43,950 nucleotides of DNA from Clostridiaceae bacterium (GTDB lineage Bacteria; Bacillota; Clostridia; Acetivibrionales; DUMB01), in contig DULF01000159.1 of the NCBI GenBank assembly GCA_012840535.1, positions 1 through 43,950 of the forward strand, read 5' to 3'. The notes under the pieces were generated by a model that saw only the letters and a program-made list of their open reading frames with translations, did no database searches and was not told where the DNA came from. Positions within the stretch are counted from its first letter, which is position 1; the number at the start of each line of letters is the position of its first letter. This document shows positions 32,048 through 43,820 of the stretch, in pieces. The position numbers and the translations under genes are program-made.

Positions 32048-34153
32048 ATGAAGGAAAAATTGAAAGACAGGTATTTTTTGCTGTGTGTGTTCTTTATATT
32101 TTTTACGGCTGTAATTGTGTTTCAATTGGTGAAACTTCAGATAGTAAACGGCAATAAATATTATGAGGATTCGCGTTATACTGCGCTCAAGGAGAGAAAG
32201 GTTGTTGCCCCAAGAGGCAAAATTACCGACAGGAATATGGTTCCTATAGCGGTTAACCGTCAGGGGTTTACAGTTCACATCGTCAAGACTGATATCAGCA
32301 ATGATGAGTTTAATGAAATGTTGCTAAACCTTGTAAATATTTTTGAAAAAAACGGAGATTCATATAACAACAGCCTGAGTAAATATTTGACTTTCAATCC
32401 AATTACTTTTAACGGCCAGTCTGAAAAAAGCATAAGAAACTGGCAAGTATCCAAACTGGGAATAAAGGATACGGAGGTAATGGAATCTCCCAGGGAAGTT
32501 TTTGAGTACATGAAGGACAAAAAATTCAAGATCGATGAAAAGTATACGGATGAAGAAGCATATAAAATAATGACAATAAGGTATGAGATACTGCTTGACC
32601 AATGGAGATTTGATACCGGCAATTCGTTATGTATTGCCAAGGATGTGAGCCGTGAAACAGTAGCCGAGGTTGAAGAAAAGGGCCATATGCTGCCGGGAAT
32701 TTCAACTGATATCGAGCCTGTAAGACAGTATATAGACGCCTATTACGTGGCACATGTGCTTGGCTATGTAAGGCCTATAACTGAAGAACAGTATGAAAAA
32801 TGGAAAGATGAGGGTTATAGCAGAAACGATATCGTCGGGCAGACAGGGATAGAACTGGAGGCTGAACGTTATCTTAGGGGGAAAGACGGGCATAAGAGGA
32901 TAGATGTAAATAATGGTGTGGTGCTTTCAGAAGGCTTGAACGGAGTTCCTGCCATACCCGGGTATGATGTCGTCCTTACCATTGACATGAACCTCCAAAA
33001 GGTAGCAACAGAATCTTTGGAAAGAACAATAAATGAAATAAGGCAAAAAGGCGGCAATAAAAATTTCGGTGACGCCAATGCCGGTTCAGTTGTGGCAATT
33101 GACGTAAACACTGGAGAGATACTGGTAATGGCAAACTACCCCACATATGACCCGGCTGTTTACCTTGAAGGGCCTGACAATAAGGAAGCTCAGCAAATAA
33201 TAAAGGCATTGAACACTGACAGCAACTCGCCGCAGCTAAACAGGGCAATACAAGGAAAATATGCACCGGGTTCGACATTCAAGCCGTTAATAGCTATTGC
33301 CGGACTTGAAGAAGGCGTAATTTCTCCCACAAATAACATTATTAACTGTGGCGGTTCCTTTGATGTGGACGGCAAGATATTCAGATGTCTTGAATATCCC
33401 GTGAGCGGACATGGAAACCTTACTCTGACAAGAGCCCTTGAAACTTCGTGCAATATCTATTTCCACAAGCTGGGGATATCAACGACTATTGACAAGATTG
33501 AAAAATGGGCAAGGTATTTTGGACTTGGGGATTATACCGGAATTGACCTGGGCGGTGAAAGTAAGGGAATAATTGCCAGTAAGGAATATAAAATGGCTAC
33601 ATTCAATGATGTATGGAGACCTGCCGATACGGCTCAATCAGCTATAGGCCAGCTTTATAACAACTATACTCCTCTTCAGTTGGCCAATTATATAAGCACC
33701 CTGGCAAACGGGGGAAAGCGTTTTAAGCCTCACATCATAAAAAAAGTATTAAAACATGATGGCTCAATAGTTATAGAAAAGGAACCTGAATATGAACAGA
33801 TTCCGGTAAAACCTGAGACTATCGCTGCAGTAAAGGCTGGCATGGTTGCGGTTACGACATCTATAGACGGAACTGCCAAGGATGTCTTCAAGGATTTTCC
33901 ATTTGAAGTTGCAGGAAAGACCGGTACCGCTGAGACAGGACGGGAAGCAACACAATCATCTAATGCATTGTTTGTCTGTTATGCTCCGGCCGATAATCCG
34001 CAGATTGCCGTTGCGGTAGTTATAGAAAAGGGAGTATGGGGTTCTTATACTGCTCCTGTGGCAAGGGACATATTGGCGGAATATTTTGGTTTAAACAAAA
34101 AAACCGGTTTTGACGATAAGGTAGTTACGGATGATGTAATATTTACAAGATAA
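32048..34153 (+). CDS. mrdA: Penicillin-binding protein 2 (elongation transpeptidase)
   Basis: A class B penicillin-binding protein of 701 residues that crosslinks peptidoglycan during rod elongation. A single N-terminal membrane segment (about 9-28) leads into the dimerisation region with APRGKITDRN. The transpeptidase motifs are S409-T-F-K412, S467-C-N and K624-T-G. A long pedestal insertion between about residues 80 and 200, rich in charged residues, is typical of Gram-positive PBP2 proteins. AAGGTG lies before ATG 32048. Its location directly between mreD and minC differs from Bacillus, where pbp genes are elsewhere, but is common in clostridia. The partner glycosyltransferase RodA is not in this window. 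Confidence 0.94.
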   Translation: MKEKLKDRYFLLCVFFIFFTAVIVFQLVKLQIVNGNKYYEDSRYTALKERKVVAPRGKITDRNMVPIAVNRQGFTVHIVKTDISNDEFNEMLLNLVNIFEKNGDSYNNSLSKYLTFNPITFNGQSEKSIRNWQVSKLGIKDTEVMESPREVFEYMKDKKFKIDEKYTDEEAYKIMTIRYEILLDQWRFDTGNSLCIAKDVSRETVAEVEEKGHMLPGISTDIEPVRQYIDAYYVAHVLGYVRPITEEQYEKWKDEGYSRNDIVGQTGIELEAERYLRGKDGHKRIDVNNGVVLSEGLNGVPAIPGYDVVLTIDMNLQKVATESLERTINEIRQKGGNKNFGDANAGSVVAIDVNTGEILVMANYPTYDPAVYLEGPDNKEAQQIIKALNTDSNSPQLNRAIQGKYAPGSTFKPLIAIAGLEEGVISPTNNIINCGGSFDVDGKIFRCLEYPVSGHGNLTLTRALETSCNIYFHKLGISTTIDKIEKWARYFGLGDYTGIDLGGESKGIIASKEYKMATFNDVWRPADTAQSAIGQLYNNYTPLQLANYISTLANGGKRFKPHIIKKVLKHDGSIVIEKEPEYEQIPVKPETIAAVKAGMVAVTTSIDGTAKDVFKDFPFEVAGKTGTAETGREATQSSNALFVCYAPADNPQIAVAVVIEKGVWGSYTAPVARDILAEYFGLNKKTGFDDKVVTDDVIFTR

Positions 34154-34179
34154 ATTAAGTTAAATGGCGGGGGTTTTGT

Positions 34180-34866
34180 ATGGGCAAAGCTGATGTTACA
34201 TTTAAAGCTACTATTAATGGTTTGATTTTAATATTGAAAGAGGATGATGATTTTCAGGATATTTATGACCAGATTGACAAAAAAATGGCTTCTGCAGGAA
34301 AATTTTTTAAAGATGCTTCAATTATAGTGAAATACCGCGGCAAGAAGCTATCTGCCCATGAGGAAGATAAAATACGTGAGCTTATGGCTAGCAAGACCGG
34401 AGCTGAAATTAAAAGTTTCAAATACGATATCCAGGAGATTCATAAAACACATAGTGATAATAATGCACAAACCAGCAAAAAGTTTTCTTTAAAGAAGTTC
34501 TCCTATTTTAATGGAATTAAAGAAGGACAGACTAAATTTTACAGGGGTACTGTCCGTTCAGGACAACTAATCAGCTATGACGGAAACCTTGTTGTCCTGG
34601 GTGATGTAAATCCTGGCGGAGAAATAGAGGCAACCGGAAATGTTATTGTTATGGGATCTTTAAGGGGCGTGGTCCACGCAGGTGCCGACGGAAACAGGGA
34701 AGCTATTGTCGCAGCTTTGAATCTTGAGCCTACACAGCTCAGGATAGCAGATATCATTACCCGTTCGCCTGATGAAAAGGAAAACAAGAGTACATATATT
34801 CCTGAAATAGCTTACGTAAAAGATGATACTGTATATATTGAGCGGTTTCTGCCGCTGCTTAAGTGA
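34180..34866 (+). CDS. minC: Septum site-determining protein MinC
   Basis: Inhibitor of FtsZ polymerisation, 228 residues. The N-terminal domain (about 1-100) is the divergent FtsZ-binding part. The C-terminal beta-helix (about 115-215) carries YRGTVRSGQLISYDGNLVVLGDVNPGGEIEATGNVIVMGSLRGVVHAG, the conserved MinD-binding face including the RSGQ motif. GCGGGGG precedes ATG 34180. A gap of 80 bases with its own promoter separates it from minD. Confidence 0.96.
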   Translation: MGKADVTFKATINGLILILKEDDDFQDIYDQIDKKMASAGKFFKDASIIVKYRGKKLSAHEEDKIRELMASKTGAEIKSFKYDIQEIHKTHSDNNAQTSKKFSLKKFSYFNGIKEGQTKFYRGTVRSGQLISYDGNLVVLGDVNPGGEIEATGNVIVMGSLRGVVHAGADGNREAIVAALNLEPTQLRIADIITRSPDEKENKSTYIPEIAYVKDDTVYIERFLPLLK

Positions 34867-34878
34867 TTGACAAATTAA

Positions 34879-34907
34879 TTGACAAATAATTAAAAGAAAT
34901 ATATATT
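34879..34907 (+). promoter_or_regulatory. Internal promoter before minD, with a duplicated -35
   Basis: TTGACA at 34879-34884, a 17-base spacer, then TATATT at 34902-34907. A second TTGACA at 34867-34872 lies in a 12-base direct repeat (ATTGACAAATTA and ATTGACAAATAA). The minD start is 40 bases downstream. Confidence 0.65.
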
Positions 34908-34946
34908 TTACTTATAAGTTTTTTGGCGCACAAGGGGGAAGAATAG

Positions 34947-35747
34947 ATGGGTGAAGTCATAGTTATAACCTCAGGCAAAGGAGGAGTAGGCAAGACCACT
35001 ACAGTTGCTAACATAGGGACAGGCCTTGCTCTTATGGGGAAAAAGGTGGTTTTAATTGATACAGATATCGGGTTGAGAAATCTTGATGTAGTTCTTGGGT
35101 TGGAAAACAGGATTGTATATGATATAGTTGACGTTGTAGAAGGTTTTTGCAGGACGAAGCAAGCTTTGATAAAGGATAAGCGTTTTGAAGGACTATTTCT
35201 TCTTCCTGCCGCACAAACAAGGGATAAAAACGCAATTAATCCTCATCAAATGATTCAGTTGTGCAATGAATTGAGAGAAGAATATGATTATATACTGATT
35301 GATTGCCCCGCAGGGATTGAGCAGGGATTTAAAAATGCTATTGCCGGAGCTGACAGAGCAATTGTTGTAACAACACCTGAGGTATCTGCAGTAAGGGATG
35401 CAGACAGAATTATAGGCCTTCTGGAGGCCAATGAGCTCAGAAATCCGAAGCTGCTTGTTAACAGGGTACGGATGGATATGGTAAAGCGCGGAGACATGAT
35501 GAGTATAGATGATATTATAGATATTCTGGCTGTAGACCTTTTAGGCGTTGTTCCCGATGACGAAAAGATTGTGATTTCAACTAATAGAGGCGAACCGGCT
35601 ATAACAGACAGCAAGTCGGTTGCAGGACAGGCATTTAGAAATATCGCAAGGAGAATAACCGGTGAAAATGTACCATTGCTGGATCTTGAAGCTGATGCAG
35701 GGTTTGTGCATAAACTTAAAAAATTATTAGGTCTTAAAACTTCTTAA
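34947..35747 (+). CDS. minD: Septum site-determining ATPase MinD
   Basis: A 266-residue deviant Walker A ATPase that recruits MinC to the membrane. The signature lysine motif GKGGVGKTT is at residues 10-18, followed by DTDIGLRNLDVVLGLENR and IDCPAGIEQGF. The C-terminal FVHKLKKLLGL is an amphipathic membrane-targeting helix. AAGGGGGAA lies before ATG 34947. minE begins 14 bases after the stop, so the pair is coupled and can run from the internal promoter. Confidence 0.97.
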   Translation: MGEVIVITSGKGGVGKTTTVANIGTGLALMGKKVVLIDTDIGLRNLDVVLGLENRIVYDIVDVVEGFCRTKQALIKDKRFEGLFLLPAAQTRDKNAINPHQMIQLCNELREEYDYILIDCPAGIEQGFKNAIAGADRAIVVTTPEVSAVRDADRIIGLLEANELRNPKLLVNRVRMDMVKRGDMMSIDDIIDILAVDLLGVVPDDEKIVISTNRGEPAITDSKSVAGQAFRNIARRITGENVPLLDLEADAGFVHKLKKLLGLKTS

Positions 35748-35761
35748 AGAGGGGGATAAAA

Positions 35762-36046
35762 ATGATACTTGATTTGTCAAAGTTATTTAAAAAGACAAAA
35801 AATTCAAAAGACGTTGCAAAAGAGAGATTAAAGCTGGTATTAATTCATGACAGAGCTAATGTATCCCCCCAATTTTTGGAGATGGTAAAGAGTGAAATAA
35901 TCAAGGTTATAACCAATTATATGGAAATAGATGAGGATTCTCTTGACATTCAGTTGACAAGAACAAAGAGTGATGATGGAAGCGGAGTTGTACCTGCTCT
36001 TGTCGCAAACATACCAATTAAAAATGTTAAGAGTAGTGGTAGATAA
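35762..36046 (+). CDS. minE: Cell division topological specificity factor MinE
   Basis: A 94-residue activator of the MinD ATPase. The N-terminal amphipathic LDLSKLFKK is followed by [32 protein letters not shown], the MinD contact helix and dimer strand, and by a C-terminal dimer domain ending in ANIPIKNV. MinE implies an oscillating Min system rather than the DivIVA-anchored one of Bacillus. The last base of its TAA stop is the first base of the next start codon. Confidence 0.95.
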
Positions 36047-36453
36047 TGAATATAGCTTTAATAGCCCATGACAAGAAAAAAGAGTTAATGGCTGATTTTT
36101 GCATAGCTTATAAACAAATTTTGCAAAACCATAACTTATTTGCTACCGGAGGAACGGGAGTTTTCATTTCCGAAGCGACAGGACTGAATATTCATGTATA
36201 TTCTCCAGGAACATTAGGCGGCGTGCAACAAATTGGCGCAAGAATCGCCTTAAATGAAATTGACCTTGTGATATTTCTAAGGGATTCCGCTTCATCCCGA
36301 GAATACGATTCGGAAATTAATTCTTTATTAAACTTATGTGATACTTATAATATTCCATTTGCAACAAATATTGCTACTGCAGAGGTTTTGATAAAAGGAG
36401 TCGAGAGGGGAGACCTCTCGTGGAGGGAACTGGTGAATCCCGCCAACAGTTGA
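36046..36453 (+). CDS. Methylglyoxal-synthase-like protein, probably catalytically inactive
   Basis: A 135-residue MGS-fold protein. It aligns without gaps to E. coli MgsA (recalled sequence, offset 11). Kept are D9 (MgsA D20), K12 (K23), T34 and T37 (T45, T48), G55 (G66) and GG-QQIGA. Lost are the catalytic base D71, here V60; H98, here Y87; D101, here E90; and the phosphate ligands S65, here P54, and T47, here G36. The C-terminus ends before R150. The spacings (51 and 27 residues) match exactly, so the substitutions are not an alignment error. Conversion of dihydroxyacetone phosphate to methylglyoxal is therefore unlikely. The start overlaps the minE stop by one base, so it is translated with the Min proteins. 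A regulatory or ligand-sensing role is speculation. Confidence 0.85.
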
Positions 36454-36477
36454 GAATAATGCTTTAGTGTAACATAG

Positions 36478-36503
36478 GACGCCATTAAATGGCGTCTTTT
36501 TTT
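36478..36503 (+). terminator. Terminator of the maf-mre-min operon
   Basis: A perfect 8-bp stem GACGCCAT (36478-36485) with ATGGCGTC (36489-36496), loop TAA, then seven T. Confidence 0.9.
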
Positions 36504-36706
36504 ATAAAGTTGTACCTTGAATTCTTCATGTCAATTTATATACTACTTTATCTGTAGTAGCAGCATGTTCTATTCTGTAATAAATCTCCCGGAACAAAAA
36601 TATAATTTAATAGGGATTACACTTTTTATACCAATGATTAACAAGTACCAAATTTATTGCTTTATTAAGGATAACTGATAAAGAGCAAAACAAAGGATGT
36701 GGTAAA

Positions 36707-37480
36707 GTGGATGATATCATAGTCAGACCCAGGTACCCACGTCAAAGTGTACATAGTCTGAGAAGAAGAAAAAGTATTAAAGCTGTTAAAAGCACTTTTG
36801 TGGAAAAGATAATTAAACAGGTATTTGCATCAGTTTTGATTCTTGCTGTAATTACTGTTATTAGAGCTATTAATACACCGTTTACCAATTTTATCAGTTC
36901 AAAAATACAGGATACCTTGTTCAAAAATATGGAACTAAATACCATATATGAAAAAATAGAAGTTGCCATTGAAAAAATTAAGGGAAACAGCTCAGGTGAG
37001 GAAAAGGAGAATGAACCTGAGGATGAAGCAGTTACTGCAATCGCTGATGCATACGAGCCGGATACAGGTGATAATGAGTTAAACACTGTCTTTATTTTGC
37101 CTGTTGACGGGAAAATATCATCAGCTTTTGGAGAGAGAAACCACCCGCTTAAAAATTATGCTGAATTTCACAAGGGAATTGACATTGATGCAGGTGAAGA
37201 TGATGCCATAAAAGCAGCTCTTGACGGAGAAGTAATTGAGACAGGCGCCAATCGGACATATGGCAATTATGTAAAAATAAAACACAAAAACAATATGACC
37301 ACAGTCTATGCACATTGTTCAAAGATAATCGTAAAAGAAGGCCAGAATGTTAAACAGGGGGATATAATTGCACAAGTGGGTAATACAGGTTTATCAGTGG
37401 GTTCTCACTTGCACTTTGAAATATGGAAAGACGGGGAACCAGTGAATCCTTTAAGCTATATAGACATTCCCATAGAATAG
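36707..37480 (+). CDS. M23 metallopeptidase, SpoIVFA-like
   Basis: A 257-residue protein. A basic cytoplasmic N-terminus is followed by one membrane segment (about 40-58), an acidic linker (about 85-125), and a LytM/M23 domain. The zinc ligands are intact: H155 and D159 in HKGID, H203 in YAHCS, and H234-L-H236. By position and topology it matches SpoIVFA, which holds the sigma-K protease SpoIVFB inactive; Bacillus SpoIVFA has a degenerate M23 domain, whereas this one could be active. The start is GTG 36707 after an AAGGA site. The M50 gene starts at the last base of its stop (TAGTG), so translation is coupled. Confidence 0.85.
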   Translation: MDDIIVRPRYPRQSVHSLRRRKSIKAVKSTFVEKIIKQVFASVLILAVITVIRAINTPFTNFISSKIQDTLFKNMELNTIYEKIEVAIEKIKGNSSGEEKENEPEDEAVTAIADAYEPDTGDNELNTVFILPVDGKISSAFGERNHPLKNYAEFHKGIDIDAGEDDAIKAALDGEVIETGANRTYGNYVKIKHKNNMTTVYAHCSKIIVKEGQNVKQGDIIAQVGNTGLSVGSHLHFEIWKDGEPVNPLSYIDIPIE

Positions 37481-38352
37481 TGATCAGATTGCCGACGCTG
37501 GATATACAGATAAGTTTGACTTTTCCGGTGGTATTGCTGTTTATATGTTTTTATGGCTTATTTGTACACTTTTTTTTAGCTTTTGTCTCAATGACGCTGC
37601 ATGAATTGGGACATATAATCGCTGCTGTGGTGTTTAAGCAAAGAGTATATTCAATACGGCTACTGCCTATTGGGTTAAGCTCGGAAATTGACGACCCTGC
37701 TTTTGGCGGATGGAAAGTAATTGTTGTCAGTATAAGCGGACCTCTTTCCAATATATTAATAGTGCTGGTATTAATTCTTGTGAAAACATATTATTTTTTT
37801 TTACCGGAATACTTCCATAATGTTTTGTATTTAAATACTTGCCTTGCATTATTTAATATGATACCTGTTTTACCCCTTGACGGAGGAAAAATATTAAAAA
37901 TAATACTTACAAGAAAATTTGGTATTTTTTCATCCTATATTAACACAAAAAGAATTTCATTGTTGTTAGCCATTTTATTTGTTATTGTCGGAACATTTCA
38001 GCTAATAGCCGGCTCATACAATTTCAGCCTGCTTGCTATTGGACTCTACATTTTTTTTCATTTAAAAACAAGAGATATGGAGGCTTCGTTAATGAATATA
38101 AAGGACATTGTTTTAAGACGTTCAAGATTATTGAAAAAAGGAATATACCCTGCCAGACATATCGTTGTATTAAAAACCGTACGAATCAGCGATACACTTA
38201 AGAGCATGGATTTTGACAGGTTTCATATAGTGTATGTCCTCGATGATAATTTAGGATTGATGAAATCATTTACCGAACAACAAATAATGGATTTGGCGCT
38301 GAAATATGACGCAAGTATTACGTTCGAGGAACTTATTTCAATGGAGAGGTAG
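37480..38352 (+). CDS. Site-2-type M50 protease, SpoIVFB-like
   Basis: A 290-residue intramembrane metalloprotease. HELGH at residues 41-45 and the second-site PLDGG with D134 in a membrane segment are intact, and four to six membrane segments are evident. The C-terminal 80 residues resemble part of a CBS domain, as in SpoIVFB, which uses it to sense ATP and bind pro-sigma-K. GTG 37480 overlaps the stop of the SpoIVFA-like gene and has no ribosome site of its own, so it depends on upstream translation. Frames starting further upstream lie inside the M23 gene and are rejected. Sigma-K processing is the inferred role. Confidence 0.87.
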   Translation: MIRLPTLDIQISLTFPVVLLFICFYGLFVHFFLAFVSMTLHELGHIIAAVVFKQRVYSIRLLPIGLSSEIDDPAFGGWKVIVVSISGPLSNILIVLVLILVKTYYFFLPEYFHNVLYLNTCLALFNMIPVLPLDGGKILKIILTRKFGIFSSYINTKRISLLLAILFVIVGTFQLIAGSYNFSLLAIGLYIFFHLKTRDMEASLMNIKDIVLRRSRLLKKGIYPARHIVVLKTVRISDTLKSMDFDRFHIVYVLDDNLGLMKSFTEQQIMDLALKYDASITFEELISMER

Positions 38353-38384
38353 TTAAATTTAAATTATGCCGTATGTCCGGCTTA

Positions 38385-39263
38385 TTATGCATAAACCTGC
38401 AATATTCCAGCTTGTTCCAGAATATCTCTTGTGGAATCATACCTGTTCATGGTGTATATATGTATTCCATCAACACGGTTGTCAATAAGGTCACGGATTT
38501 GGACGGCCGCATATTCAATACCGGCTTTCAGCATATCATCGGGGCTGAGTCGGTATTTGTCCATTAAAAGGACGAGTTTTGCAGGTATTGAACACCCGCT
38601 TTTTGCGGCTATTTCCTTTATACGGTCTGCGTTAAAAACCGGCATGATGCCAGCCGCAACCGGGCAGTTGATATTCACAGAAGCAAGCTTATCCAGAAAA
38701 TCATAAAAAATCCTGTTGTCAAAGAAGAACTGGGTTATGAGAAAGTCCACACCGGCATCCACTTTATTCTTTAAATGCGCCAAATCATCACTTAACCTTC
38801 TGCTTTCCACATGTCCTTCAACATACGCTGCAGCAGCGATACAAAAACTATACCGTTGTTTTATGTGTTGTATAAGTTCGTAGGCATGTTTGTAGTAATT
38901 CTTGGTAAAATCGTAGCCGGGTTGGTTCTTTGGCGGATCTCCCCGGAGAGCGAGTATGTTTTTCAGACCCTTTTCCTTTATCAAGACAAGCAGATTTTCT
39001 ATTTGCTGCTCTGTATGGTTTACGCACGTAAGATGGACCATACTTTCAATATTGTACTTATACTTCAACTTTTCAGCAATTTCAATTGTCCTGCCTCTGG
39101 TGTTGCCGCCTGCTCCATAGGTGACGCTGATGTAATCAGGATTTAAGAGTTTGAAATGTTCCAATAAATTATATATTTTGTCCAAAGGGGCATCTTGTTT
39201 TGGCGGAAAGATTTCAAACGAAATAACGGTTTTTTTATTTTCAAACAAATCAATAATTTTCAT
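38385..39263 (-). CDS. metF: Methylenetetrahydrofolate reductase
   Basis: A 292-residue flavoprotein reducing methylene-THF to methyl-THF for methionine synthesis or acetyl-CoA metabolism. SFEIFPPK with the catalytic glutamate, DYISVTYGAGGNTRGRTIEIA, HLTCVNHTEQQI, LALRGDPP, and DFLITQFFFDN are diagnostic. The start is ATG at 39261-39263 with GGAGGT upstream on the minus strand, and a strong promoter lies 114 bases upstream. No zinc-finger MetV partner is seen beside it. It converges on the SpoIVFB-like gene with 32 bases between them. Confidence 0.95.
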   Translation of the reverse strand: MKIIDLFENKKTVISFEIFPPKQDAPLDKIYNLLEHFKLLNPDYISVTYGAGGNTRGRTIEIAEKLKYKYNIESMVHLTCVNHTEQQIENLLVLIKEKGLKNILALRGDPPKNQPGYDFTKNYYKHAYELIQHIKQRYSFCIAAAAYVEGHVESRRLSDDLAHLKNKVDAGVDFLITQFFFDNRIFYDFLDKLASVNINCPVAAGIMPVFNADRIKEIAAKSGCSIPAKLVLLMDKYRLSPDDMLKAGIEYAAVQIRDLIDNRVDGIHIYTMNRYDSTRDILEQAGILQVYA

Positions 39264-39587: not shown

Positions 39588-40556
39588 ATGAAAATCAAAG
39601 TAGGTTTATATGGCACAAACGGGCATCAGATCCAGCATGTTCTACAGAATCATCCAAAAGCTGAATTGGTTGCTGTAGGAGCATTTAATAAAGAGGCTCT
39701 TCCTGTGTCTCTGTTAGACAATAAAAATATAAAATTTTATTGCACGCTTGAGGAGCTTTTGTGTGATGAAGATGTTGAGCTTGTTTCTCTTTGTTCCCCG
39801 CGGAGGAAAGACCAGGCGGCGGATGCAATTAAGTGCCTGGAAGCAGGTAAACATGTTTATGCGGAAAAGCCTTGTGCCATGAGCGAGGAAGAACTGGATG
39901 CCATAATTGCTGCAGTTAAAAGGACAGGAAAACAATTCCATGAGATGGCAGGAACTGCTTTTGAACAACCTTATTTGGAGATGAGGCATATTGTCAAAAA
40001 TGGAATGATTGGTGAGGTTGTCCAGGTGCTTGCCCAAAAATCATATCCGTATTTTGACGGGCGGCCGCAGGATGAAGATGTGGACGGCGGGCTTACCATG
40101 CAAGTTGGAGTTCATGCCACCCGCTTTATAGAGCATGTGGCAGGTCAAAGGATAATTGATATATATGCAATGGAGACAAAACTCGGCAATCCTGCCAGGA
40201 CCGGCGAGCTCAGGATGGCATCATCCATGATGGTGAAACTTGAAAACGGTGGTATAGCAAGTATTATAGCGAATTATCTCAATCCGCGTGGCTTTGGAAA
40301 ATGGGGAAATGAAACTTTGAGGATATTCGGAACCAAAGGTTTTATTGAGGCTGTGGATGGGGGAACCAGGACAAGGCTGGTCATAGGGGACAAGGATATG
40401 GGAAGCATTACTGAAAAACAAAATAGCGTTAACTATTTCGACTTCTATGTCAATTCTCTTCTGGATGGTACACCTATGCCTTTTACTTTGGAAGAAGAAT
40501 TGCACCCGACCAGAATGGTTATAAGAGCTAAAAAGAATGCCGTGCTGGTGCCATAA
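39588..40556 (+). CDS. Gfo/Idh/MocA family oxidoreductase
   Basis: A 322-residue NAD(P)-dependent sugar or polyol dehydrogenase. The N-terminal KVGLYGTNGHQIQ is an unusual Rossmann start, lacking the typical GXGXXG. The EKP cofactor motif is present in HVYAEKPCAMSEEELDAI, and the C-terminal beta domain contains GGLTMQVGVHATRFIEHVAG with the conserved D/H-type catalytic site. The substrate is unknown. ATG 39588 follows AAGGTG. The start point carries a palindromic operator candidate. It converges on the AraC-type regulator of the next operon and is likely part of the same catabolic locus. Confidence 0.88.
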   Translation: MKIKVGLYGTNGHQIQHVLQNHPKAELVAVGAFNKEALPVSLLDNKNIKFYCTLEELLCDEDVELVSLCSPRRKDQAADAIKCLEAGKHVYAEKPCAMSEEELDAIIAAVKRTGKQFHEMAGTAFEQPYLEMRHIVKNGMIGEVVQVLAQKSYPYFDGRPQDEDVDGGLTMQVGVHATRFIEHVAGQRIIDIYAMETKLGNPARTGELRMASSMMVKLENGGIASIIANYLNPRGFGKWGNETLRIFGTKGFIEAVDGGTRTRLVIGDKDMGSITEKQNSVNYFDFYVNSLLDGTPMPFTLEEELHPTRMVIRAKKNAVLVP

Positions 40557-40602: not shown

Positions 40603-41436
40603 TTATCTGTATCTTTTCCTGTATTGGTACGGTGTTGTGCCCTCATATTTTTTGAATATTCTTATAAAGTGATTTACATTGTTAAAGCCGGAGTTCATGC
40701 ATACCCGGATTATGTCATCATTGGTGTGGAACAGCAGGTCTTTTGCTTTCGATATTCTCTGGAGGATGATATATTCCTTAAAGGTGAAGCCTGTAACCTT
40801 TTTGAACAGGTGTGAAAGATAATACTTGTCCATAAAGAAGAGCTTTGAAATGTCTTCAAGACTTATTTGTTCAAGGTAATGCTCTTCTATGTATTTCTGG
40901 ATTTCAGTGATTGTTTGCATTGAGCTGTTTAGGGAACGGAGCGGAAAGTAAGCCTGATAGTTTCTGTACAGTATTATGAAAAGGCGATAGAGATCGGATT
41001 TTACTGCTGCTTCCCAGAAGGCTTCTTTTTTGTTTAATTCGTAGTATAAGTTTTCTATGATATCATTAATTTCTCTGAGCCCTTCTGAGCCAAGTTCAAT
41101 TACATGCCTGAAGCTGTCCGAACGGTTTCTGAATATAGATGACAGTATGGGTTCGTCTATTACCGACCTGAAATAGTCAGGTTTTATTAATATAAAATAT
41201 CTTTTATACGGGTATTCCAATACCTTCACATGGTGTGTTTCCATGTTGTTGATGAAAACCAGGCTGTTTTTGTCTACAAAATATTCTTTATCATTTATAT
41301 GATACCTTGTCTTTCCCTCTAAAACATAAATTATTTCATAGGAATTATGGAAATGGTTTTTGATTTCAAGTTCCTTATTGCTTTCCTGGTATACAATGTC
41401 AATTGGATAAGCTGATGGTACTAGAAGATTGCCCAT
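40603..41436 (-). CDS. AraC-family transcriptional regulator
   Basis: A 277-residue activator-type regulator. An N-terminal cupin ligand-binding domain (FHNSYEIIYVLEGKTRYHINDKEY) is followed by the C-terminal pair of helix-turn-helix motifs (LEDISKLFFMDKYYLSHLFKKVTGFTFKEYI and IIRVCMNSGFNNVNHFIRIFKKYEGTTPYQYRKRYR). The cupin suggests sensing of a sugar or glycoside. I chose ATG at 41434-41436, preceded by GGGGGT; the longer frame from 41481 runs through this site. It is divergent from the flavin oxidoreductase gene, across a 161-base region with repeated ATTACAA motifs. Confidence 0.93.
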   Translation of the reverse strand: MGNLLVPSAYPIDIVYQESNKELEIKNHFHNSYEIIYVLEGKTRYHINDKEYFVDKNSLVFINNMETHHVKVLEYPYKRYFILIKPDYFRSVIDEPILSSIFRNRSDSFRHVIELGSEGLREINDIIENLYYELNKKEAFWEAAVKSDLYRLFIILYRNYQAYFPLRSLNSSMQTITEIQKYIEEHYLEQISLEDISKLFFMDKYYLSHLFKKVTGFTFKEYIILQRISKAKDLLFHTNDDIIRVCMNSGFNNVNHFIRIFKKYEGTTPYQYRKRYR

Positions 41437-41457
41437 ATAGTATTTACCCCCAAAATC

Positions 41458-41563
41458 TTGTAATTGACCTCGAAATAGCAAAAAAAGCTAATAATATTAC
41501 AAATAAATTATAGTATATAAGATTAAAACAAGATACAATTACAAAAAAAGATTATTTTATACT
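41458..41563. promoter_or_regulatory. Divergent control region with repeated ATTACAA sites
   Basis: TTGTAATTG at 41458-41466 and its exact inverse CAATTACAA at 41536-41544 bracket a third ATTACAA at 41496-41502. The two direct copies (41496 and 41538) are 42 bases apart, four helical turns. The last copy sits where a -35 should be, ahead of a TATACT -10 at 41558-41563. This suits an AraC-type activator. Confidence 0.5.
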
Positions 41564-41597: not shown

Positions 41598-42950
41598 ATG
41601 ATTTTTAAGGAATTTGAGTACTCAAGTCTTGACGAGCTGGAACACGAGGCGGATTCGCTTGGATTGGACTTGCACTTTTCAGACAATTTTGAACTTCTGG
41701 CAAAAAAGGTCAATGTTGAAGGTTTTACCGTGCCAAACTCACTGGCATTCCATCCTATGGAGGGCACGGACGGCAAGACGGACGGAAGTCCGGATGAATT
41801 GACAATAAGAAGGTATGATCGATTTTCAAAGGGGGGAGCCGGGCTTATTTGGTTTGAGGCTGTTGCTGTCGTGCCGGAAGGCCGAGCGAGCCCAAGGCAG
41901 CTCTGGATACATGAAAAAAATCTGGATGAATACCGGAAGTTGCTTGAAATGGTGATCAATAATGCTCAGAAGGAGTTCGGCAAGGATTCTATGCCGCTGT
42001 GCATAATGCAGGTCACCCATTCCGGAAGATTCAGCAAGCCTGAAGGAAAACCTGCGCCTATAATTGCTGTGCACAATCCTTATCTTGACCGTATTCACAA
42101 TCTTGATGAAAGCTATCCGGTGATAGAGGATGGAGAACTCGAGAGACTGGAAGATAAATTTGTTGAGGCTGCAGTGCTGGCAAAAAAAGCAGGATTTCAC
42201 GGTGTTGACGTGAAATGCTGCCACCGGTATCTGAATTCTGAGCTGCTTTCAGCGTATACAAGAAAGGGCAGGTATGGCGAAACATTTGAGGGAAGGACAA
42301 GATTTCTTTTGAATGTGGTCGGCAAGATCAAGTCAAAGCTTGGCAAAGGCTTTATTGTTACAACAAGGCTCAATATATATGACGGCATTCCATATCCGTA
42401 TGGCTGGGGGACGGACATGGAAGACTATCAGAAATATGACCTGGAAGAACCAATAAAGATAGTGCAGAAGCTATATGAAATGGGAGTCGGAATTATTAAC
42501 CTGACCATGGGTACGCCGTATTATAATCCGCATATAAACAGGCCGTTTGACAAAGGCGGTTACATTCCTCCCGAACACCCTCTGATAGGAGTCGCCAGGC
42601 TTAATTCAGGCATTGGGCAGGTACAGAAAGCGGTGCCCGGTATTGCCGTAGTAGGAACGGGCTATAGCTGGCTAAGGCAGTTTTCTCCGTACCTTGCTGC
42701 GGGGACTCTGGAGAAAGGCCTTGCGACGTTCATCGGCTACGGAAGGGAGAGTTTTGCATATCCTGATTTTGCCAGGGACATATTACAAGACGGAGGACTA
42801 AAAAAGGAAAAATGTTGTATAGCGTGCGGCAAATGCACTGAAATTATGAGAGCCGGAGGTACGGCAGGCTGCGTGGTCCGGGATGCAAAGGTATATGCGC
42901 CGATATACAGGCAGTATTGTGTTGAAAAAAATAAAAATGCGCAGGCATAA
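41598..42950 (+). CDS. Old-Yellow-Enzyme-type iron-sulfur flavoprotein oxidoreductase
   Basis: A 450-residue TIM-barrel FMN enzyme of the NADH:flavin oxidoreductase group. GGAGLIWFEAVAVVPEGRASPRQL, THSGRFSKPEGK and the VVGTGYSW region match the family. In the active-site segment the usual His-X-X-His pair is K206-C-C-H209-R-Y211, so the first histidine is lysine. Near the end C407-X2-C410-X2-C413-X11-C425 looks like the iron-sulfur ligands of 2,4-dienoyl-CoA-reductase-type members, but the FAD/NAD(P) domain that normally follows is absent. The N-terminal 45 residues are an extension. The GGGGG ribosome site precedes ATG 41598. Substrate unknown; neighbours suggest a glycoside or cyclic ketone. 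Confidence 0.85.
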   Translation: MIFKEFEYSSLDELEHEADSLGLDLHFSDNFELLAKKVNVEGFTVPNSLAFHPMEGTDGKTDGSPDELTIRRYDRFSKGGAGLIWFEAVAVVPEGRASPRQLWIHEKNLDEYRKLLEMVINNAQKEFGKDSMPLCIMQVTHSGRFSKPEGKPAPIIAVHNPYLDRIHNLDESYPVIEDGELERLEDKFVEAAVLAKKAGFHGVDVKCCHRYLNSELLSAYTRKGRYGETFEGRTRFLLNVVGKIKSKLGKGFIVTTRLNIYDGIPYPYGWGTDMEDYQKYDLEEPIKIVQKLYEMGVGIINLTMGTPYYNPHINRPFDKGGYIPPEHPLIGVARLNSGIGQVQKAVPGIAVVGTGYSWLRQFSPYLAAGTLEKGLATFIGYGRESFAYPDFARDILQDGGLKKEKCCIACGKCTEIMRAGGTAGCVVRDAKVYAPIYRQYCVEKNKNAQA

Positions 42951-43009: not shown

Positions 43010-43043
43010 AAAATAAAATAAAATTCACAGGAGGTTGAAAATT

Positions 43044-43820
43044 ATGCTGGAGAACAAAGCGGTGCTGGTTACAGGCGCAGCGAGAGGCATAGGAAATGCC
43101 ATAGCCGTCCAACTGGCTTCCGAGGGCTATGCTGTTGCAATACTTGACGTTTTTGACGAAGAAAAGGTAGAGGAAAATATAAATAAAGTAAAGAAATATG
43201 GCAATCCATTTCTGTATTTCAAAGGGGACATCACTTCCGATGAAAGCAGGAGGAATGCGGTTGACAGGATAATGTACGAGTTCGGCAGGATTGACGTTCT
43301 TGTAAACAATGCCGGGGTGGCTCCCAAGGTGAGAATGGATATACTGGAGACAACTGAGGAGAGCATGGATTTTGTACTTGGTGTTAACCTCAAGGGTACT
43401 TTCTTTTTAACCCAACTGGTAGCAAAAATTATGATTAATGAAGTCAAAACCATTGAGGGTATCAAGCCTAAAATTATAAACATTTCATCTGTGTCGGCTT
43501 ATACTTCGTCCACCCAGCGCGGTGAATACTGCATTTCCAAGGCAGGCGTCAGCATGATTACCAAGCTGTTTGCCGACAGGCTAGCGGAATACGGGATAAA
43601 CGTATATGAAATCAGGCCTGGAATAATATTCACAGATATGACCAAGGTTGTAAAGGACAAATATGACAAACTTATAGCAGAAGGAATTACGCCAATTAAA
43701 AGGTGGGGTTATCCTGAGGATATAGCAAACGCAGTATCCGTTTTTTGCTCAGATAAGCTGAACTTTTCAACGGGGGAAGTAATAAATGTGGACGGTGGGT
43801 TCCATATAAGGAGGGTATAA
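43044..43820 (+). CDS. Short-chain dehydrogenase/reductase (classical SDR)
   Basis: A 258-residue NAD(P)-dependent oxidoreductase. TGAARGIGNAIA binds the cofactor, DITSD contacts the adenine, NNAG is the structural motif, and the catalytic set is the serine in NISSVSAY with Y and K in YCISK. The C-terminal GEVINVDGG is typical of FabG-like SDRs. The aspartate after the second strand (AILDVFD) suggests NAD preference. AGGAGGT before ATG 43044 fixes the start; the TTG at 43035 lies in the ribosome site. It follows the flavin oxidoreductase by 93 bases and is probably co-regulated. Confidence 0.93.
   Translation: MLENKAVLVTGAARGIGNAIAVQLASEGYAVAILDVFDEEKVEENINKVKKYGNPFLYFKGDITSDESRRNAVDRIMYEFGRIDVLVNNAGVAPKVRMDILETTEESMDFVLGVNLKGTFFLTQLVAKIMINEVKTIEGIKPKIINISSVSAYTSSTQRGEYCISKAGVSMITKLFADRLAEYGINVYEIRPGIIFTDMTKVVKDKYDKLIAEGITPIKRWGYPEDIANAVSVFCSDKLNFSTGEVINVDGGFHIRRV

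Follow-up and report, generated by a model that had tools for sequence, protein, structure and literature searches.

A clade of lysine-type OYEs with recurrent SDR and fumarate-reductase-fold partners

We describe a widespread, unnamed clade of OYE-superfamily flavoproteins, outside every curated family model, in which a lysine occupies the place of the first histidine of the substrate-binding pair. The member analysed here is encoded near the end of the window, that is, the whole of a 43,950-base contig of a Clostridiaceae bacterium. This lysine-type OYE (Lys-OYE) is accompanied by an SDR and a flavoprotein of the fumarate-reductase fold (FRD), and the three seem to belong to a bacterial route, so far uncharacterised, for the degradation of plant sugar acids. 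The fixed active-site lysine and the recurrent redox partners define a testable module that may uncover a step still missing from the degradation of plant sugar acids in gut anaerobes, and the Lys-OYE extends the known chemistry of OYEs. The original prediction concerned a single protein; the observation is extended here to a clade, and its interpretation is partly supported. Literature searches found no Lys-type OYE or OYE-SDR-FRD module, which does not in itself prove absence in print.

The lysine-type OYE and its clade

The relevant features of the window are:

39588..40556, + strand: Gfo/Idh/MocA oxidoreductase, preceding the AraC regulator and the OYE
40603..41481, - strand: AraC-type regulator, divergent from the OYE
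41598..42950, + strand: Lys-type OYE (PF00724), 450 aa, ATG start; FMN TIM barrel and [4Fe-4S] tail
41760..41771, + strand: E55-G-T-D58; E55 falls on the active-site Cys of YqjM, and E55 and D58 are fixed in the clade
42213..42224, + strand: K206-C-C-H209, at the position of the substrate-binding HxxH pair
42816..42872, + strand: C407-X2-C410-X2-C413-X11-C425 (CX2CX2CX11C), presumed [4Fe-4S] ligands
43044..43820, + strand: SDR (PF13561; NCBIfam PRK12745), downstream partner gene of the OYE

The OYE is the sole PF00724 gene found in the assembly of its genome. Its only Pfam domain is PF00724 (Oxidored_FMN, residues 44-264; 72.9 bits against a cut-off of 27), and it contains the four-cysteine [4Fe-4S] motif characteristic of the DCR, 2-enoate reductase and BaiCD type. 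The protein terminates 25 residues past the last cluster cysteine and has no FAD/NAD(P) domain; thus, the cysteine positions and the single domain bear out the prediction that the cluster motif is kept in a protein that ends before that domain. None of the curated NCBIfam models reached its cut-off with the window OYE (best, 83 bits of the 793 required), with the bilirubin reductase models far below (72 of 750) and the BaiCD model below as well (61.5 of 825). The SDR matches PRK12745 above the cut-off (333.7 against 250 bits); for its start, ATG 43044, which follows GGAGG at 43030, is preferable to the TTG 43035 of the ORF list. Upstream of the module, positions 32048-39263 of the window encode housekeeping proteins, including MTHFR, recognised by Pfam, as well as a penicillin-binding protein and MinC-/MinD-like, methylglyoxal-synthase-like and peptidase-like proteins, read from the translations.

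The predicted model of the window OYE (mean pLDDT 96.2) is best matched by 2-naphthoyl-CoA reductase (6qkg; Z 42.8 over 360 residues, 2.1 A), followed by stand-alone thermophilic-like OYEs (Z about 40), TMADH (39.1) and DCR (1ps9; 39.0). The alignments with the three-domain enzymes cover the cluster region as well and reach residue 430-435, whereas those with YqjM, TOYE and TsOYE end near 400. By its Pfam domain, barrel fold, FMN site and tyrosine, the protein is a member of the OYE superfamily; it falls outside the classical HxxH/HxxN ene-reductases, the DCR/BaiCD group and TMADH.

The histidine pair of OYEs holds the substrate carbonyl. We placed residue equivalences by comparing a sequence profile of 66 family members with PDB sequences; in YqjM (1z41), K206 falls on the first histidine of the HAAH motif, H209 on its second, and E55 on the cysteine of the PMC motif. 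A phmmer comparison with a thermophilic OYE agrees with this placement, and the predicted replacement of the HxxH pair, at these positions, is right. The column of residue 206 is lysine in all 110 aligned family proteins, namely the window OYE, those from all 29 loci retrieved by scanning 398 genomes, and those from all 80 loci fetched by sequence pattern; in 31 other PF00724 proteins, the same column contains 29 His, 1 Asn and 1 Leu. The letters KCCH, which had been taken as a shared mark, occur in none of the 29 scan-fetched loci (13 KACH, 10 KSCH, 4 KHCH, 1 KSCY and 1 KSSH); their abundance among the pattern-fetched loci (65 of 80) arises because the search patterns contained the motif of the window itself. 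Judging by the aligned sequences, the signature of the clade is K-x-C-H and not KCCH, or more fully D-[V/I]-K-x-C-H-x-Y-L plus E55 and R315. In the 110-row alignment, E55 and D58 are invariant (109 of 109, with one gap), as are Y211 and R315 (110 each), and C208 and H209 are each present in 109 rows. A shortened family member (L008/L117, G372:C1) has KSCY for KxCH; its genome has no FRD-like match, and the gene is possibly a decaying copy. The FMN-site residues Q138, R257 and R383 and the proton donor Y211 are conserved in Lys-OYEs and other OYEs alike. Thus, only the substrate-facing part of the pocket is altered, and the Lys-OYE is probably catalytically active.

Of the 398 phylum genomes scanned, 31, including that of the window, contain a match with an E value no higher than 1e-30, and 30 of these (about 8% of the sampled phylum genomes, 30/398) carry the lysine. 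Two matches were fetched later, one with lysine (L140, KLCH) and one with histidine (L141). Searching 84,980 species genomes by pattern led to 110 confirmed loci, of which the best 80 were all of the lysine type, in a sample biased towards KCCH by the window motif in the patterns. In a FastTree tree without one protein (L029), the 110 Lys proteins form a single clade (support 0.97, stem length 1.13), apart from the standard enoate reductases; this outcome of the tree check proposed earlier is in line with the NCBIfam results. From the 110 rows, 66 were kept for alignment A1; those dropped include fragments and fusions (L008, L016, L029, L054, L067 and L070 among them). The carriers include MAGs named Clostridia, Bacillota, Planctomycetaceae, Sedimentisphaerales and Verrucomicrobiota, and a homologue (L037, 57%) is encoded by a named strain, Caldicoprobacter oshimai DSM 21659; in the 84,980-genome scan, Lys-OYEs are common in gut and rumen Clostridia MAGs. 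The pattern gave no match in viral contigs, and a tblastn search of plasmids returned one clear relative, in a Subdoligranulum variabile record (44.9%), the other matches listed being at 22-28%.

In four of the 110 proteins (L015, L017, L045 and L046), the OYE is fused to a GltD/NfnB-type reductase (Fer4_20 and a pyridine-nucleotide reductase domain), identified by Pfam in L046 and in the other three as BLAST relatives of L046. In the fused domain of L017 (G041), several cysteines of the Fe-S region appear to be lost compared with L015, suggestive of cluster decay. In L054 (9233-11263), an AP_endonuc_2 isomerase-like TIM barrel is fused N-terminally to a Lys-type OYE, and the genome of the window encodes a separate barrel (L147, 5084-5839) in a cluster related to that fused one. 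L140 (G356:C1:336837-338039) is a distant second Lys-type OYE (30%) with DMKLCH and its own CX2CX2CX11C, located near transport genes resembling a sugar ABC system in a genome that has an ordinary family member as well; L140 possibly represents a sister clade.

Partners and genomic neighbourhood

Genes for the SDR and the FRD recur downstream of the OYE. Among the 110 loci L032-L141, a set that includes the His-type L141, 89 have at least 4 kb of downstream sequence; an SDR relative lies within 1.5 kb in 53 of these, an FRD of type A within 3 kb in 49, and both, forming an OYE-SDR-FRD tandem, in 47. By tblastn, an SDR of at least 40% identity is present in 70 of the 110 loci; OYE and SDR are not always found together. 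The FRD is a flavoprotein of 600-700 aa with the fumarate-reductase fold. Type B (L037) is recognised as a fumarate-reductase-like FAD_binding_2 protein, whereas type A, found in L032 and the relatives of the window, is very divergent, with L-aspartate oxidase the only phmmer match (1e-6). The model of the L032 FRD (pLDDT 88.6) matches FrdA (Z 40.5 over 545 residues, rmsd 4.0), and its H416 and R448 correspond to H351 and R386 of L-aspartate oxidase, which points to a carboxylate substrate. No recurrent gene for an FrdB/SdhB-like Fe-S subunit was seen among the neighbour clusters inspected.

The association of the OYE with the FRD holds at the genome level. An FRD-like protein (1e-20 or better) is encoded in 43 of the 398 phylum genomes, namely, in 27 of the 30 with a Lys-OYE compared with 16 of the 368 others (Fisher 1.6e-27); for type A alone (at least 50% identity), the counts are 16 of 30 and 5 of 368. 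In several genomes, such as G063, G136 and G393, OYE and FRD are on separate contigs, so the link exceeds shared position. Thirteen loci of FRD genes unlinked to an OYE showed no evident shared extra partner. We considered the possibility that the GltD fusion substitutes for the FRD and ruled it out, given that both GltD-fused genomes of the phylum (G041 and G083) hold an FRD as well.

In the genome of the window, this arrangement is interrupted by the contig boundary. The window contig (C152) stops 130 bases past the SDR stop codon, and another contig, C173, opens inside a type A FRD with 77% identity over 475 residues to the FRD of L032, the nearest relative, in which the FRD follows OYE-SDR. 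The two contigs apparently adjoin across a gap of about 600 bases, which would put the junction from OYE-SDR to FRD here. On C173, the FRD is followed by a PfkB kinase (84% to a KDG-kinase-like cluster), a URO-D-like gene on the opposite strand, a 2-hydroxyacid dehydrogenase and an AP_endonuc_2 sugar-isomerase barrel; at the contig end lie an NfnA-like gene and the first part of an NfnB-like one. Behind the L032 FRD, the kinase and the 2-hydroxyacid dehydrogenase recur as on C173, and a URO-D-like gene was recognised by reading of its start. URO-D-like proteins, recognised by Pfam, recur by sugar genes (L147 on G000:C173, 2620-3684, minus strand), with the cluster present in six other loci, and no corrinoid protein was noticed next to them. 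NfnAB was set aside as a recurrent electron partner: the other loci yielded just one NfnA relative (L132), and the presence of these genes on C173 is possibly a coincidence.

To characterise the neighbourhood, 92 family loci of at least 10 kb, from the L032-L141 set with its His-type L141, were compared with 20 control loci around ordinary OYEs using the same query families, a comparison that favours the family loci because these families were drawn from them. Neighbour genes were taken as longest ORFs, some of them false reverse-strand ORFs in GC-rich loci, so that neighbour counts are rough; three clusters were judged to be false in this way, and SDR and FRD were recounted by tblastn. The FRD is present in 66 of the 92 family loci, Gfo/Idh proteins in 34 and sugar-isomerase-like barrels in 25, against none of the controls, and the SDR in 48, against 2 controls. 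The differences are modest for a wide uronate gene set, which includes a mannitol-dehydrogenase-family (UxaB-like) cluster (25 of 92 against 1 of 20), and for KDG kinase, KDPG aldolase or Uxa genes (13 of 92 against 0 of 20), and several family loci have no gene of the uronate set. The Gfo/Idh, SDR and AraC neighbours of the original prediction are real, and the former two recur in the family. The particular Gfo/Idh type of the window is found in only 6 loci, and an AraC-type regulator of its kind occupies position -1 in 17, both counts including the window; sugar regulators recur near Lys-OYE genes. An informative single locus is L135, where the OYE is surrounded by a mannitol-dehydrogenase-family gene, UxaC, an altronate-dehydratase-cluster gene and a GH28-cluster gene; UxaE was matched in the pooled neighbour scan, with the member unnamed there. 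The genome of the window itself yields just a weak UxaC match under the cut-off, a GH88-type match barely above it (29.4 against 26.6) and one KDPG aldolase, on a different contig.

A possible role in sugar-acid catabolism

The reading that we tentatively prefer is that an FMN/[4Fe-4S] Lys-OYE acts with the SDR and the FRD to break down a sugar acid or an enone derived from one. We infer the substrate, direction and electron partner as follows. A reductase would deliver electrons to the [4Fe-4S] cluster for the reduction of FMN, from which hydride would be passed to a C=C bond conjugated with a carbonyl or carboxylate. K206 and H209 would hold this carbonyl or carboxylate as a cationic pair in place of two histidines, R315 and E55 would shape a polar pocket, and Tyr211 would donate the proton. 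The SDR may then act on a carbonyl, and the FRD may carry out a second redox step, on a carboxylate, with the product feeding the 2-keto-3-deoxygluconate (KDG) kinase, whose putative gene adjoins the FRD in the genome of the window. The invariant tyrosine of OYEs is the proton donor in the account of PMC6502838. With Lys, Glu and Arg fixed on the substrate side, a polar, probably carboxylated substrate appears likelier than a greasy enone. Sugar 3-dehydrogenases and isomerase-like barrels are described as converting levoglucosan and plant glucosides to 2-hydroxy-3-keto-glucal, a sugar enone (PMC7676230, PMC10628242); a compound of this sort could serve as the substrate of a reducing OYE. Such known sugar-enone formation, the polar-pocket residues and the carboxylate positions of the FRD speak for reduction of a sugar-derived enone or enoate. 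The distinct oxidoreductive pathway predicted earlier is plausible. The prediction did not include the partner that accompanies the OYE most constantly, the FRD, which is encoded outside the contig; the proposed glycoside or cyclic substrate is narrowed towards sugar acids, short of proof.

The opposite direction is a serious, if rather unlikely, rival because trimethylamine and histamine dehydrogenases export electrons via their cluster, directly to ETF (PMC6502838). Under this scenario, FMN would take hydride from a sugar acid and the cluster would send single electrons to ETF, ferredoxin or the FRD; the absence of a second flavin domain, the change at the first histidine position and the structural proximity of TMADH (Z 39.1) are all compatible with such a dehydrogenase. 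No recurrent ETF cluster appeared among the neighbour clusters inspected, however, and the fused GltD/NfnB-type NAD(P)H reductases, present in 4 of the 110 proteins, suggest that electrons enter there. The earlier statement that electrons must come from a separate partner was too strong, because stand-alone OYEs accept NAD(P)H hydride at FMN, as the Lys-OYE may also do, and because these few proteins have a reductase fused on. It is improbable, in our estimate, that the Lys-OYE and the FRD assemble into a single complex, in which the FAD of the FRD would replace the missing FAD domain and the substrates would exchange electrons via FMN, [4Fe-4S] and FAD without NAD(P)H. The tandem genes, co-occurrence even across contigs, the helical domain of complex II flavoproteins in the FRD fold and the lack of a recurrent FrdB-like gene among the clusters inspected would all fit, but two unlike FRD types serve different loci, and G041 and G083, with GltD-fused OYEs, carry the FRD elsewhere, so that the FRD is no simple replacement for a reductase.

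A bolder version of the chemistry, which we regard as a long shot, makes K206 a covalent catalyst: a conjugated iminium formed by its amine with a keto-sugar or keto-acid would take the FMN hydride, with C208 and E55 tuning the lysine, and the enzyme would be a natural iminium-chemistry OYE in an undescribed uronate route with an FRD-fold enzyme lacking the usual Fe-S subunit. That the protein is an ordinary 2-enoate or 2,4-dienoyl-CoA-type reductase with a neutral lysine substitution seems highly improbable: the fold and cluster region are the same, but the lysine is present in 110 of 110 proteins, E55, D58 and R315 are fixed too, the DCR-type FAD domain is missing, no NCBIfam cut-off is reached, and the neighbourhood is of the sugar type.

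Comparison with known OYE-related systems

The three-domain 2-naphthoyl-CoA reductase and DCR resemble the Lys-OYE over 353-360 aligned residues, which comprise an FMN barrel and, after it, a [4Fe-4S] subdomain, whereas the Lys-OYE has lysine for the first histidine and no FAD/NAD(P) domain. The cluster spacing differs as well, being CX2CX2CX11C in 100 of 110 family proteins compared with the CX2CX3C form in 13 of 17 long outgroup OYEs. YqjM, TOYE and TsOYE have in common with the Lys-OYE the Gln and Arg of the FMN site, the proton-donor Tyr and the second His; they lack the Fe-S tail, and the Lys-OYE has Lys for their first His and Glu for the Cys of the PMC motif, with Thr in the window OYE, and Cys in many relatives, two residues after E55.

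TMADH and histamine dehydrogenase, which are defined by covalent cysteinyl-FMN and ETF as the acceptor, resemble the Lys-OYE in fold, and the first position of the pair is non-His in both. In the dehydrogenases, this residue is Tyr rather than Lys; the Lys-OYE also lacks the ADP-binding domains, and no amine context was seen around it. The gut Fe-S OYEs BilR and BilV come from gut anaerobes, in which Lys-OYEs occur too, but differ in motif, length and neighbours; there, a change in the active-site motif (HGDR, AHAH) is reported to mark a new function (PMC13252198).

The levoglucosan pathway, with its dehydrogenase of the Gfo/Idh type, is the closest likeness on the sugar side. It combines a dehydrogenase with isomerase-like barrels and passes through an enone intermediate, and LgdA-B1-B2-C is presented as a set of four enzymes, with no OYE or FRD among them in that account (PMC7676230).
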